From a virus, in the IMG/VR virus record IMGVR_UViG_3300046542_000168, positions 43,408 to 107,407 of that record: a stretch of DNA of 64,000 nucleotides. The stretch is one strand, 5' to 3'. How positions within the stretch are numbered: the first letter of the stretch is position 1; each line of letters starts with the position of its first letter. Under the pieces are notes generated by a model. The model saw only the letters and a list, made by a program, of their open reading frames with translations. It was not told the origin of the DNA and searched no databases. Positions 10,086 through 50,481 of this stretch are shown one piece after another. The position numbers and the translations under genes are program-made.

Positions 10086-11480
10086 ATGGCTCACACCCTT
10101 ATTAGACTCAGGGAGAAGTATTACAACACTCCCCTGTTGGTAGACACAGAGACATTTAACTCTGTGATGTCCTACCTAGATACACGCAACGACGGCAATG
10201 TAGAAATTAACGCTCGAAGCGGAGAGGACGAAAGCGGGCATTCCCGCATCCTCTACAACGAAGATACACAGACCGCTGTTATGCACATTGAAGGTCCACT
10301 GACATATCGTCCAGTTACTTTCATGGGCTTCGACTGCGGCGGAACTAACTACACCGATCTAAAGCAAGATGTTGAAACGGCCATTGATATGGGCGCCAAG
10401 ACAATTGCCTGGATGGTAGATAGTGGTGGTGGTGAAGCACATCAGATGTCGGACTCTGCGAAGTACATTCGCAAGCTACTTGATGAAAGTGGTGTTCGAC
10501 TCCTGGCGTATGTAGATGGCCGGTCGGCCTCTGCTGCTTACGGCCTTACAGCTATCGCTGATGAAATCATTGCCTCACGAGATTCCGAACTAGGAAGCAT
10601 CGGGGTACTTGTTCAACTCATCAACGATTCCCAGGCCATGAAGAAAGAAGGCTATGAACGCACGTTCATTACTGCCGGTGACGACAAGATCCCGTTTGCC
10701 GAAGATGGAAGTTGGCGTGAAGGATTCTTAGCTGATCTTCAGAAAAAAGTAGACATCACCTACAAAGACTTTACCGAGCATGTTGCTGACCACAGAGGCA
10801 TCTCAGTAGAAACAGTTAAGTCCACTCAAGCACGAATGTTCTTTGCAACAGATGCTATCGGGTTGGGCCTCGCTGACAAAGTAATGACTCCTGAAGAGTT
10901 CTATACATATCTGGCTGATGAAGCCCAATCAAACATGAGTGGAAACGCTGTGTTCAAACCACGCATTTTTAAATCTATGTCCGCACAGGATGACCCTATG
11001 AAACTAGCTGAACTGGAAGCTCAACTTACCGAGCTGACAACTAAACTAGCCGACGCCGAAGCAACTATCGCTGCAAGCGTAGAAGCTAACACATCAGCCG
11101 CTCAGGCTGTTGTCGAGGCTCTGGCAACTAATGAAACTCTGGCTTCGCAACTACTGGCTGCTCAAGACGAACTAACTTCGCTTAAAGCAGAGAAAGCAGA
11201 AGCTGCTCTAGCCTCTCGTAAAGCTTCCCTACTTGCTGCTGCTGTTCCGGCTGATCGTGTTGAAGGAATGATGACAAGTCTGTCGTCGCTTGATGACGCA
11301 ACCTTCCAGACTGTAGTTGATGGCTTCGCTGCCACTAAAGCAACTGTAGAACAATCTGCACTTATGACCGAACTAGGTCAAGACGCAGAAGTTGAAGCTC
11401 CTGCAAAAGCAACTGCTGATGCTGACGCAGCAGACGCTGCAACTCGTGCCGCTATCGCTCGTCGCGCTAACCGCAAGTAA
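10086..11480 (+). CDS. head maturation protease (S49/SppA type) with C-terminal scaffold
   Basis: A 464-residue fusion as in lambda C. Residues about 60-270 form the ClpP-fold S49 protease with VDSGGGEA (111-118) and the nucleophile Ser149 in G-R-S-A-S-A-A-Y. Residues about 300-464 are an Ala/Glu coiled coil typical of scaffold. It processes the prohead and self-digests during maturation. An in-frame internal start at 10998 would yield free scaffold, as lambda does with Nu3. Confidence 0.9.
   Translation: MAHTLIRLREKYYNTPLLVDTETFNSVMSYLDTRNDGNVEINARSGEDESGHSRILYNEDTQTAVMHIEGPLTYRPVTFMGFDCGGTNYTDLKQDVETAIDMGAKTIAWMVDSGGGEAHQMSDSAKYIRKLLDESGVRLLAYVDGRSASAAYGLTAIADEIIASRDSELGSIGVLVQLINDSQAMKKEGYERTFITAGDDKIPFAEDGSWREGFLADLQKKVDITYKDFTEHVADHRGISVETVKSTQARMFFATDAIGLGLADKVMTPEEFYTYLADEAQSNMSGNAVFKPRIFKSMSAQDDPMKLAELEAQLTELTTKLADAEATIAASVEANTSAAQAVVEALATNETLASQLLAAQDELTSLKAEKAEAALASRKASLLAAAVPADRVEGMMTSLSSLDDATFQTVVDGFAATKATVEQSALMTELGQDAEVEAPAKATADADAADAATRAAIARRANRK
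10998..11480 (+). CDS. nested scaffold protein (internal in-frame start)
   Basis: Within the protease gene, an in-frame ATG preceded by AGGA at eight bases would give a 160-residue coiled-coil protein beginning MKLAELEAQLTEL. The lambda C/Nu3 arrangement is the precedent. An ATG seven codons earlier is an alternative start. Confidence 0.55.
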   Translation: MKLAELEAQLTELTTKLADAEATIAASVEANTSAAQAVVEALATNETLASQLLAAQDELTSLKAEKAEAALASRKASLLAAAVPADRVEGMMTSLSSLDDATFQTVVDGFAATKATVEQSALMTELGQDAEVEAPAKATADADAADAATRAAIARRANRK

Positions 11481-45770: not shown

Positions 45771-46268
45771 ATGGCTAGCGGCAAGAAAACGGTTAAAAAT
45801 CGTACAGAAATGACCGTCACCGATCACACGACTGGGGAGGCTCTATCGAGTGAAAAAACCGTCACGTACAGAGTCCCGAGAGAGCCGGACTTTGTAAAGG
45901 TGTACACCGGGGCCTTTAAGGAGGTAGTCACAAAGAAGGGTTGCCATCTGGCGATGTTTATGCTTCTGGTTGACAAGATGGGGTATGAGAATGAAATCGG
46001 CCTGACCCCGGCCGGTCGTGTCAGGATCTGCGAAGCCCTGGGTATCCAGGCACAGACCTTCCGAAACCATTTGAATGACTTGCTGGAGCGCGATGTTCTC
46101 CGTCGAACTAGTCACGGAGAGTTCATAGTAAACCCGACGTATATTGCCAGGGGTGAGTTCGAGAAAATTCTGCCCAGGATAGAGGCGTACAATAAGATCG
46201 GGAGGGTGAAAACTAAGAAGGGTCGGGCCCCGAAGCCTAAAGAATCCCTGGAAGAGTCAACTAATTGA
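45771..46268 (+). CDS. RepL-like replication initiator (winged helix)
   Basis: A 165-residue protein with GGGGAAGGCG before ATG. The core resembles plasmid RepL initiators: F-V-K-V-Y-T-G near 43, M-F-M-L-L-V-D-K-M-G-Y-E-N in the middle, a helix-turn-helix (ICEALGIQAQTFRNHLNDL) and the wing R-R-T-S-H-G-E-F-I-V-N-P-T-Y. N and C termini are Lys rich. It would bind origin repeats and start replication. The assignment is from pattern only; a transcriptional regulator with the same fold is the alternative. Confidence 0.62.
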   Translation: MASGKKTVKNRTEMTVTDHTTGEALSSEKTVTYRVPREPDFVKVYTGAFKEVVTKKGCHLAMFMLLVDKMGYENEIGLTPAGRVRICEALGIQAQTFRNHLNDLLERDVLRRTSHGEFIVNPTYIARGEFEKILPRIEAYNKIGRVKTKKGRAPKPKESLEESTN

Positions 46269-46371: not shown

Positions 46372-46965
46372 CTACTGGGGTGGCTGGATAAATCCATGAC
46401 TAGTCAGCCACATATCCAGGGCCTCGGTCATAATGGCTTTCTGTGACTTCTTAGTAAACATCCCAGCCAGTTTCAACAACTGGGCGCGACGGGGATCTAA
46501 TGGGGTGCTGACGTTACACTCCTTTAGAAACTCCGGGTTGAGTCCCCCTGTTTCCATCATTCCAGTTAGCATAGCAGCCATAGCCGCCATTGGATTCTGA
46601 GGTGCATCGCTCACTGGTGCAGCTTCCTGTACTGGTTGCGGTTGAGTGGGTGCAGGCTCTACTACCTGGGCAACTGGTGCAGGTTCCGCTACTTGCTGCG
46701 GTTGAACTGGCGTTGGCTGTGGTGCTGCAACTGGTGCAGGGACAACTTCTTCAGCCTGGGCGATTTCAGTCTGTGCAACTAACACAGGCTGCGGGGCTGG
46801 CTCTTCTGTTACCTGGGGCTGAGCAACTACCGGCTCTTGTACCTGGGCTGCACCTACCGCCGAGATGTTATTCACCGGGGTCGGGTTCGTAAGCATATCT
46901 TGAAGAGATAGGCGATCAGCGGCACGGTCGGCGGCGCGATCTGTTCGAGTTTTCTTGGCGCTCAT
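46372..46965 (-). CDS. ribbon-helix-helix protein, probable centromere-binding partition protein
   Basis: A 197-residue protein in three parts: basic N terminus (KKTRTDRAADRAADR), a long Pro/Gln/Val/Ala low-complexity linker (35-120), and a C-terminal domain (about 150-197) reading S-T-P-L-D-P-R-R-A-Q-L-L-K-L-A...S-Q-K-A-I-M-T-E-A-L-D-M-W-L, the strand-helix-helix of RHH regulators. Lying beside parA and in DNA with a 4-bp phase, it is best explained as a ParG/omega-like ParB substitute. The linker is much longer than in known ParG proteins. Confidence 0.65.
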   Translation of the reverse strand: MSAKKTRTDRAADRAADRLSLQDMLTNPTPVNNISAVGAAQVQEPVVAQPQVTEEPAPQPVLVAQTEIAQAEEVVPAPVAAPQPTPVQPQQVAEPAPVAQVVEPAPTQPQPVQEAAPVSDAPQNPMAAMAAMLTGMMETGGLNPEFLKECNVSTPLDPRRAQLLKLAGMFTKKSQKAIMTEALDMWLTSHGFIQPPQ

Positions 46966-46969
46966 AATT

Positions 46970-47380
46970 GCATACCTGCTTAATTATTCAACCACTTCTT
47001 TAAGTGGCCGCGTGATGACGTGGTTGAGCCCTCACGTCACTGATGCAGCGCTTACCTGGGCAAGCGGTCACTATAGCAACCACTCCCCTGCGTAACCCCT
47101 CACGCGATTAGATGCCTAACTGACTGATTCGTCAAGCGATCAACCACGCAAGTGACCATTCAAGTAAGCGGACACTCGGTCAATTAGCCGAGTCATCACG
47201 CGGGTGATGAATCAATCGTTCAAGCAATTGATGGATCAATGGACCGATTGAACGATGGATCAATGAAGCCATTGATCCATCGGATGTATATACAACCCAT
47301 GGGTCAATGGATCACTCGTTCAAGCAATTGATTGATCACTCGTTTGCTTGGTCAGTCACTTCGCCGCCTGCTTGCCTGAC
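46970..47380. repeat. 4-bp-phased repeat region, left arm (candidate centromere)
   Basis: About 390 bp between the RHH gene and parA can be read as unbroken tetramers drawn from a small vocabulary (CAAT, CACT, TGAT, CGAT, GGAT, CAAG, CACG), for example CAAT TGAT GGAT CAAT at 47225-47240. There is no open frame. A 23-bp exact repeat (47220-47242) and GGATGTATATACAA (47282-47295) recur in the right arm. Confidence 0.75.
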
Positions 47381-48135
47381 TGGTCATCCAGTTTGATGCT
47401 TGCGTGCTTGCTCGGCTTCTTCACCACCTTTGCCTTGCCCACTTCTTCATTAGTAAGTGGGTCGATGATTACTGGGTTTTCGACATGAATGCCCAGCTCC
47501 ATCAGGATGCAGTCGGTTAGGGCGGCAATCTCCCTGGCACCCTTATTACGCTTATCAATCTCGGCCAGGGTGCTACCAGTTCTCAGACAGTTCACGAAAC
47601 CTGCCTTGTAGTGGATGGTAGGGCCAAGCTTCCCGGCAGACGCCAGGGCAATCACTGCATCAGTTGCAATGTTGGTGGTCGGATGTACTTCGTTCAGTAC
47701 GAACAGCCGGGGAGTAGTGATTTCTTTCGAAGTGAGGTCGCTCAACGACTTGACCATCGACCACAGGTCGAAGTAGCTAGCCTTCGAAGGCATAACCAAC
47801 AGGTCAGCAAGTTTGAGCACGTTGAAGATATCGCTGTGGCCGAAACCTGGGGTGTCGATCACCAGGAAATCCAGGCCCCCCGCTTCCAGCTTCGGGATTA
47901 CTGCTTCTAGCTGATCGATGCCGATAGCCAGCAACTCTGGGTCGCCCAACTCGCGCTTGTCCAACCATGTAGTGGTGTTCGCAGTGGGGTCGATGTCCAT
48001 CATGCCAACGTGGTAGCCCTTCGATGCCAGGGTGCCGCCGAGTTGAACGCTGATGGTGGACTTACCACAGCCGCCCTTCTGGTTGGTGACACAGATGATC
48101 TTGAGCTTACGCTTGAACTGACTAGGGAGTTGCAT
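47356..48135 (-). CDS. parA: ParA-family partition ATPase
   Basis: A 259-residue Walker ATPase with deviant P-loop KGGCGKST (20-27), M-D-I-D-P-T-A-N (switch I) and L-V-I-D-T-P-G (switch II), all in proper order. ParA binds DNA non-specifically and moves the centromere complex to segregate low-copy plasmids. Ribosome site AGGAAG; a TATATATAG box 15 bp further up is the likely -10. The C-terminal tail is Lys rich. Together with the RHH protein and the flanking phased DNA it forms a complete type Ib-like partition locus. Confidence 0.9.
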   Translation of the reverse strand: MQLPSQFKRKLKIICVTNQKGGCGKSTISVQLGGTLASKGYHVGMMDIDPTANTTTWLDKRELGDPELLAIGIDQLEAVIPKLEAGGLDFLVIDTPGFGHSDIFNVLKLADLLVMPSKASYFDLWSMVKSLSDLTSKEITTPRLFVLNEVHPTTNIATDAVIALASAGKLGPTIHYKAGFVNCLRTGSTLAEIDKRNKGAREIAALTDCILMELGIHVENPVIIDPLTNEEVGKAKVVKKPSKHASIKLDDQSGKQAAK

Positions 48136-48139
48136 GGGT

Positions 48140-48990
48140 GCTTCCTCTATATATAGGTGCTCACTGAGTGAGCTATTCCTTGCTAGGTTGACCGCTTACG
48201 CGGCTGAGTGCGTCCGTGCGTGGGCAAGCTATCGATGGGGCAGTCGGTCACTCGCGTAACCCATCACTGCATCAATCGCCTGGGTAATCCCCTAAGTGCG
48301 CAATTCATCGAGCCATTCATTGGCCGATCATTTCACTGCTTGAGTCATCCATCGCTCGATTGGTCGGTAGCGTGCTTCTTCACTTAATCAATGCGTCAAT
48401 CAAGTGCTTCCGCACGCAACCCATCAAGCAAGCCATTAGTCCATCCATCGCTTCCGTAAGCACTCACTGGCGCGATTCACCACTTACTTGGTCGTTCGCT
48501 TGCGTGAGTGACTGGTTACGCGGTGAAGCAACTACTGGCTTGCTCAACCACTCCCTCGCTCGACTATCTGATTGCCCGACCGATTAAGGCAGGAATCAAT
48601 CAATGAGTCAGTCAACGAAGCAGTTGCTCGATCAACCGAGTCATCACTCGGTCAGGAACTCAATCACTTGCGCCCTTGAGGAACCATTTAAACACCCGCT
48701 CGATCCCTTGTCAAACTAATTGATAGCTTAAAGCCTTCATGAATTGATCGTGCGACTGACCGATAGATCGATAGGCTGATGAATTGAGTGACCAACCGAT
48801 GGAGCGATGATTGACTGAAGTAATTGATATCTCCATTCCTGAAGCAAGCAATGCCGCACTGATGTGTGTGAGGCAATGATGACAGGACCGAATGAACAAG
48901 CGTCCAATGGGTCAAGCAATTGATGGATCAATGGGTCGAGCGTTCAATGGGTCAATGGAACCATGGGATGTATATACAAGTAACGGTCCT
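48140..48990. repeat. 4-bp-phased repeat region, right arm
   Basis: About 830 bp upstream of parA keep the same tetramer phase with very few slips, e.g. CAAT CAAG TGCT TCCG at 48396-48411. The 23-bp repeat recurs at 48912-48934 and GGATGTATATACAA at 48966-48979. Reading frames across it are by-products of low complexity. Likely binding platform for the RHH protein and the parA operator. Confidence 0.75.
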
Positions 48991-49704: not shown

Positions 49705-50097
49705 TTATTCGTTGAGAGTGGCCCAACCTTTTACCGCTTCAACTCCCCACTTCTTCCTCCACTCATTGAGCACTGTGTGGTTGCCGTGAGAGCTAACAAT
49801 TTTCTCGTTAGTGTGAGGATTTACCCAGGTCTTTGTGGGCCTTCCTCCCTCTGTTGTAGCTGCTGCCTTAGCTACCTTAGCTGCACCTGTAGCTTGAGCT
49901 TTCGGAGCCTTATAGTTCTCATCAAGGATCTGATTCACATCTACCAGGGAGCGAGAGTGCTTAGCTAGGAGAGCACGTAGCTCACTCTCGAATACCTGTA
50001 GCGACTTAAGCTCAGGGTCATCCTGAAGAGCATCCAGTTGAGCTTTAGCCGCAGCTAGGGCAGCTCGTGCGAGACGGAGTTGAACGATCTTGGACAT
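49705..50097 (-). CDS. second MvaT/H-NS-like DNA-binding protein
   Basis: A 130-residue divergent relative of the gene at 4317. It has an N-terminal coiled coil (L-R-L-A-R-A-A-L-A-A-A-K), an S-R-S-L-V-D-V-N segment, an Ala/Lys linker and a C-terminal T-W-V-N-P-H-T-N-E-K-I-V-S-S-H-G-N-H with E-W-R-K-K-W-G. The key K-G-G-N-H of MvaT is S-S-H-G-N-H here, so DNA specificity may differ. It sits beside the origin-like repeats, where silencing or nucleoid structuring would affect replication control. Confidence 0.88.
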   Translation of the reverse strand: MSKIVQLRLARAALAAAKAQLDALQDDPELKSLQVFESELRALLAKHSRSLVDVNQILDENYKAPKAQATGAAKVAKAAATTEGGRPTKTWVNPHTNEKIVSSHGNHTVLNEWRKKWGVEAVKGWATLNE

Positions 50098-50210
50098 ATA
50101 GCTCTCTTGCGTGATTGGTGGAAAGTCTTACACTAGCAGTGCGTTAAGTCGCGCACTATAAGCTCAAGTAGCTCGCAACGGAAGAGAGTACTCAAGCTTA
50201 AGCTCAAAAA

Positions 50211-50317
50211 TTCCATCACAGGGGCCTCTCAAAAACTCCATTACAGGGGGTACAGATTTCCTCACAGTGGGGTACTGAATTTCCCTACAGGGGCTAGCTG
50301 AGTTTCCTCACACGGGG
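50211..50317 (+). repeat. five iteron-like direct repeats
   Basis: Copies at 50211, 50236, 50258, 50281 and 50304 match TTCC(A)TCACAGGGG with few changes and are spaced 25, 22, 23 and 23 bp. Regular two-turn spacing is typical of initiator-binding iterons. Confidence 0.75.
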
Positions 50318-50385
50318 TAAGCTCGATCTACCCTGGCTCGATGCTGCATTGTGAGCGTCCCCATTCATTCCTGTCTTAGATAGGT

Positions 50386-50481
50386 AGCTAACTATCGATT
50401 TACTTGCATAGCTAGCTATCGATTTAGTTGATTAGCTAACTAAGCATTTAGATGCATAGCTAACTAACTACCTGAATAGCG
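50386..50481 (+). repeat. four tandem 24-bp AT-rich repeats
   Basis: Units at 50386-50409, 50410-50433, 50434-50457 and 50458-50481 each begin AGCTARCTA and most continue with an ATTTA block; period exactly 24 bp. Lying 70 bp from the iterons, this looks like the AT-rich unwinding region of an origin. Confidence 0.78.

Follow-up and report, generated by a model that had tools for sequence, protein, structure and literature searches.

Four-base-pair phased DNA on both sides of parA in a tailed phage, a candidate giant split centromere for a ribbon-helix-helix protein

Introduction

Bacterial partition systems of the ParA type differ in how their centromere-binding proteins occupy DNA. ParB proteins of the helix-turn-helix (HTH) type use CTP-driven spreading, and ParG of plasmid TP228, a ribbon-helix-helix (RHH) protein, recognizes ACTC-type boxes with 4-bp spacing. 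In type Ib systems, the RHH protein binds repeats beside the par genes and stimulates the ATPase activity of ParA. The parH centromere of TP228 is composed of degenerate tetramer boxes and AT-rich spacers (PMC7308502). In the pSM19035 delta/omega/parS system, an RHH ParB is paired with contiguous short repeats in direct and inverted orientation, and their contiguity matters (PMC9499535). One published RHH system requires a minimum of four adjoining, gap-free binding repeats, RHH-type ParB cannot spread from its own sites, and the fit of systems with limited numbers of ParB dimers to the diffusion-ratchet model has been described as unclear (PMC9499535).

The locus described here lies in the window, the 64-kb stretch of virus DNA that was analysed, which belongs to a Pseudomonas-type tailed phage; its portal protein shares 49% identity with the counterpart in Pseudomonas phage phiPMW. 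As in TP228 ParFGH, the gene for a type Ib ParA precedes that for an RHH protein carrying an N-terminal tail, and degenerate tetramers, in direct and inverted repeats, lie beside parA; with pSM19035 the locus shares an RHH protein gene accompanied by contiguous short repeats in both orientations. Unlike parH, it consists of 304 contiguous tetramers in two arms that flank parA, without spacers and without an 8-bp alternation, with a GC content near 50% and with a pyrimidine-purine (Y-R) rule in place of an ACTC-type box; the array is also much longer than parH. Unlike pSM19035 parS, it has a period of 4 and not 7, it has no fixed repeat sequence, and it extends over ~1.2 kb, compared with 7-10 repeats per parS site (PMC5016525). 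ParG/parH is the nearest known system, and on its sequence features the locus may be filed as a variant of type Ib partition outside the ParG/parH subtype, the new elements being the spacerless array and the dinucleotide-step rule. We propose, with a probability of roughly 0.8, that the two arms form one giant split type Ib centromere, and probably also an operator, on which the RHH protein would assemble a continuous filament moved by ParA.

The par Genes

The parA gene (47356..48135, minus strand) encodes a 259-residue ParA/MinD-type ATPase that has type Ib size (about 200-260 aa) and lacks an HTH extension at its N terminus. The protein matches Pfam AAA_31 (9.7e-16) and CbiA (2.1e-13), the ParA-like family PHROG 164 (3.1e-33) and, in the PDB, ParF 4dzz (1.8e-7), and it carries the ATPase motif NQKGGCGKS near residue 20. 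Along the minus strand the order is right arm, parA, left arm and the gene of a putative centromere-binding protein (46372..46965, minus strand). This 197-aa protein is laid out as a K/R-rich N terminus, a long P/Q/A-rich linker and a C-terminal RHH domain (46390..46518, minus strand; approximately residues 150-192, alignments A1 and A3) that includes the predicted DNA-contacting beta strand.

A small downstream protein with a C-terminal RHH domain, as in type Ib systems, is thus present, though the window protein by itself gives a weak match: its C-terminal 62 aa align with Pfam Antitox_RHH at E = 0.0043, short of the curated cut-off, and its AlphaFold model is of low confidence, the two C-terminal helices having pLDDT values of 70-77. 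A profile built from alignment A3, which comprises 12 parA-linked RHH proteins, matches ParG (1p94) at E = 0.0012 and also retrieves CopG-type RHH structures, in line with the claim of the earlier note that an RHH protein is encoded beside ParA. A tblastn search of phages and plasmids for relatives of the RHH protein returned none, with one weak viral match. Repeats adjoining the par genes, a further type Ib trait, are found as the period-4 arms on either side of parA, and they are kept in a diverged relative.

Period-4 Signal and Register of the Arms

The period-4 signal was evaluated over 46967-47355 (left arm) and 48136-48985 (right arm), each against 500 dinucleotide shuffles. The base-by-phase chi2 at period 4 is 213.4 for the left arm (shuffles 9.1 ± 4.5, maximum 27.0) and 402.2 for the right arm (shuffles 9.5 ± 4.3, maximum 25.7), and the lag-4 autocorrelation reaches 0.384 (z 6.2) and 0.427 (z 12.3), respectively, vs. 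0.249. By both measures the peak stands far above shuffled sequence, which was the check that the earlier note had proposed. By the same chi2, none of the periods 3, 5, 7, 9 and 11 rises above chance in either arm. The coding-type period 3 gives values of 1.4 and 0.6, less than in shuffled DNA, which rules out the arms as coding sequence. At period 7 the chi2 per degree of freedom is 0.75, left and right alike; period 8 adds nothing to period 4 (gains of ~17 on the left and ~8 on the right for 12 extra degrees of freedom), and the arms have no lag-8 excess. By chi2, the arms therefore have neither the alternation of boxes and spacers at 8 bp that marks the ParG/parH subtype nor the 7-bp heptads of the omega/parS subtype. 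The missing 8-bp alternation contrasts with the 7-8 bp spacing of known RHH dimers and is a point against the centromere reading.

The highest 300-bp period-4 scores in a scan of the 64-kb window all fall at the arms, and period 4 is absent from the RHH gene, from parA and from the DNA past 48985. Register is constant, with no net slip, over ~46970-47370 and ~48150-48940, and the absolute 4-bp register is identical in the two arms; the signal fades at 48830-48870, in the outer stretch of the right arm. The left, smaller arm (46972..47371, no strand assigned), between parA and the RHH gene, contains 100 in-phase tetramers and overlaps the 3' end of parA by ~16 bp, and the right, larger arm (48148..48963, likewise without strand), upstream of parA, contains 204; the consensus of both is T-Y-R-A (B-Y-R-V), and their GC content is ~48-50%. 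Altogether, ~1.2 kb of noncoding DNA flanking parA holds 304 tetramers in one unbroken register, so that the phasing on either side of parA with hardly a slip, as first described from reading the sequence, holds up quantitatively (chi2 213 and 402). Elsewhere in the window, a weaker period-4 patch occurs at 50200-50480 (chi 49 at 50251), between an MvaT-like gene and the next gene; it holds CACAGGGG-type plus AGCTAACTA / TAGCTAGCTATCGATTTA-type repeats.

The Tetramer Rule

The phased tetramers follow the rule [not A][C/T][A/G][not T] (B-Y-R-V), with T and A favored at the outer positions and a Y-R step every 4 bp. Y-R occupies the in-phase core of 79% of the left and 66% of the right tetramers, compared with 8-16% in the other three phases. 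With 49 distinct tetramers per 100 positions on the left and 76 per 204 on the right, at 1.6-1.75 bits per tetramer, the arms represent a grammar rather than a sequence repeat. The restricted vocabulary of short words suggested by the earlier note is accordingly too narrow, and a degenerate, strand-symmetric Y-R rule takes its place. The phase matrix is nearly its own reverse complement about the Y-R core (r 0.99 and 1.00). Relative to independent letters, CA and TG cores are enriched (136 vs. 104 expected) and CG and TA cores are depleted (78 vs. 106), as would be expected if asymmetric half-sites serve in both orientations.

Functionless tetranucleotide microsatellites, generated by 4-bp slipped-strand expansion and then degraded by point mutation, could also leave DNA with a 4-bp period. 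In line with such an origin, the main internal repeat families are spaced by multiples of 4, and similarity exceeds that of tetramer-shuffled DNA at lag 16 in both arms, where it is modestly raised, and at lag 4 in the right arm. Decay should, however, bring 1-3 bp indels and slips of register, and none are seen across 1.2 kb; moreover, the phase rule is strand-symmetric and is realized by many distinct tetramers, and Tandem Repeats Finder returns just four weak rows for the arms, on which basis a plain tandem repeat was dismissed. We regard a microsatellite origin as quite unlikely.

The folding energy of the arms (z -5.8 and -6.2 vs. dinucleotide shuffles) raised the question of whether they encode a structured RNA or form a cruciform; vs. 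tetramer shuffles that keep the phase, the z values are only -2.3 to +0.7. Since the effect is mostly lost in this control, the folding appears to come mostly from the self-complementary rule; together with the lack of any Rfam match, this largely refutes a structured RNA, and we assign the RNA or cruciform reading a very small likelihood.

A Diverged Relative

A relative of the locus, which supplies the strongest evidence, was reached through the Band-7 gene of the window, whose protein is 86% identical to its counterpart in L236, part of the 105-kb virus G001; the ParA proteins of the two viruses are 42% identical. The L236 locus is syntenic with that of the window, in the order RepL-like gene, RHH gene (175 aa), arm 1 (~10.73-10.99 kb), ParA, arm 2 (~11.80-12.80 kb) and MvaT-like gene. 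The arm DNA of the two viruses is unalignable save for one 55-bp piece. Nevertheless, the L236 arms have period-4 chi2 values of 175 and 694, and in-phase Y-R accounts for 95% and 92% of their tetramers, which makes the rule stricter than in the window. An unbroken run of 123 Y-R tetramers contains 30 distinct tetramers with a self-identity of ≤0.55. The flanking letters are K...M where the window has T...A, and CG cores are almost excluded (4 seen vs. 36 expected). Retention of the rule while the letters change suggests selection on protein binding; that nearly all letters have been replaced under a stricter rule also fits selection better than the decay of microsatellites.

The cassette is flanked in both viruses by a RepL-like replication gene (45771..46268 in the window, plus strand, Pfam RepL 5.1e-10; 7.8e-12 at the same place in L236) and by a gene for an MvaT-like xenogeneic-silencer protein (49705-50097 in the window; L236:13981-14364). 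As a viral bait, the RepL-like neighbor gave zero matches. These flanking genes would fit a different DNA transaction, with the arms serving as a RepL-like origin or as an MvaT-like nucleation platform, and the rule could then be explained by the Y-R steps, which are the flexible steps of DNA. The arms, however, surround parA and not the RepL-like gene, their GC content of ~48-50% differs from the AT-rich target of MvaT, their step of 4 bp does not keep phase with the helical turn and so produces no curvature, and similar arrays are found again at the parA-RHH cassettes of plasmids whose replication genes differ; we judge this possibility unlikely.

Both viruses carry a palindromic element within this framework. 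The ATGTATATACAA element, which includes the 10-bp palindrome TGTATATACA, occurs at 47284..47295, within the left arm near parA, and at 48968..48979, at the outer end of the right arm (no strand assigned to either). These are the only two copies in the window, where 0.18 would be expected with one mismatch allowed, and they lie 1684 bp apart, an exact multiple of 4. The L236 copies, at 10979 and 12803, are separated by 1824 bp, again a multiple of 4. In each virus one copy of TGTATATACA (CGTATATACA in one L236 copy) is placed in the small arm near parA and another at the large arm's outer end, and its center of dyad symmetry sits in the Y-R register at every copy. It is possible that this element is a cap or the site of a second protein.

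Proposed Mechanism

We propose that RHH dimers would bind side by side on the arms, with one monomer per tetramer, recognizing it around the Y-R step; with 8 bp (two tetramers) per dimer, up to ~150 dimers could be accommodated on 1.2 kb. With a strand-symmetric and unbroken phase, the RHH protein could load either way round and build a long, continuous and evenly spaced filament. Its protruding N-terminal tails may then engage the nucleoid-bound ParA ATPase, which would segregate the phage DNA during a presumed plasmid-type maintenance, and occupancy of the right arm beside parA may also repress the operon; no sigma-70-like promoter was found within the arms, which makes the operator role uncertain. 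Selection on the unbroken register would follow from a contiguous-site requirement like that of the published RHH system (PMC9499535).

A centromere is the best explanation of the parA-RHH cassette, of the grammar kept in L236 and of the recurrence of 4-bp phasing at such loci in unrelated plasmids and phages, and in this respect the proposal of the earlier note is supported; the part that assigned the centromere to the ParG kind, with boxes and spacers, is not, given that the arms lack both an 8-bp alternation and an ACTC motif. More tentatively, and at somewhat below even odds, the locus may exemplify a rule-based class of centromere with one Y-R step per 4 bp, both strands equal, an RHH filament of >1 kb and TGTATATACA caps. 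If so, a rule-based RHH filament would replace the CTP-driven spreading of HTH-type ParB. A centromere of ~300 contiguous tetramers would be a natural case in which sites are many times more numerous. The DNA code would be unusual as well, in that the rule is retained though nearly every letter changes. Since the rule is kept without the letters, such centromeres would escape similarity searches, and a simple period-4 scan beside parA could find them.

Period-4 DNA at Other parA Loci

At loci of ParA relatives, strong period-4 stretches adjoin parA almost always. Arrays phased at 4 bp but with other vocabularies occur at parA-RHH loci of a Pseudomonas oryzihabitans plasmid (L139, NZ_CP044072) and of the viral contigs L004, L044-L052 and L039. 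In L139, Y-R arrays lie immediately upstream of parA; downstream of parA is an RHH gene (L139:5717-6013) that is not in the plasmid gene table. This and similar parA-RHH plasmids resemble the window in having period-4 arrays right at parA, with Y-R cores in L139, and in encoding RHH proteins that align with the window RHH domain; they differ in that the arrays are shorter and have other flanking or core letters. Vocabularies vary by lineage, and some arrays are not strand-symmetric. Scored in 100-bp segments, the arrays cover 1365 bp in the window, 850 bp in L139 and 130-460 bp in the others, the window array being the longest of this compared set; L236, outside the set, has an array of similar length.

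Within the 370 bp at the start of parA, the period-4 score is above the 95th percentile of the controls in about half (8) of 16 plasmid parA-RHH loci. This percentile was applied because the 99th-percentile control for period 4 is inflated by arrays in other parts of these loci. None of the 16 loci is over the 99th percentile of the controls at period 5, 7 or 11.

The viral loci L044-L052 have a third array within the stretch of the RHH gene that codes for the linker (L044:5755-6261, L050:5758-6315 and L052:5776-6273), where the DNA phase and the protein linker appear to use the same bases (overprinting). Across L044-L052, mismatches in the linker array tend to track position modulo 4 and mostly not codon position, and those in the RHH-domain-coding part mostly track codon position, several tests in either part being marginal and uncorrected for multiplicity. 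Subject to those marginal tests, substitutions that depend on position modulo 4 argue against decayed microsatellites. A search by grammar only (18 x YRNN) of ~790 cellular genomes was unspecific, with nearly all matches being simple tandem repeats; that long Y-R runs in these genomes are almost always true tandem repeats is a point in favor of a microsatellite origin. One 18 x YRNN match, a simple tandem repeat, lies directly at parA in L255.

In the related Pseudomonas phages phiPMW and vB_PpS_SYP (pieces of ~200 kb, with no parA annotated), period-4 DNA was not found, the maximum chi being 33, which is in favor of the centromere reading. Halomonas phage phiHAP-1 has CATA-type tetramers round a long palindrome between its protelomerase and parA genes (L147:2476-2725); this annotated repeat region may be a telomere site, and it was not counted as support. 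Three other loci of ParA relatives contain strong period-7 DNA (L135:6001, L056:5761 and L048:1681), possibly representing heptad centromeres of the omega type.
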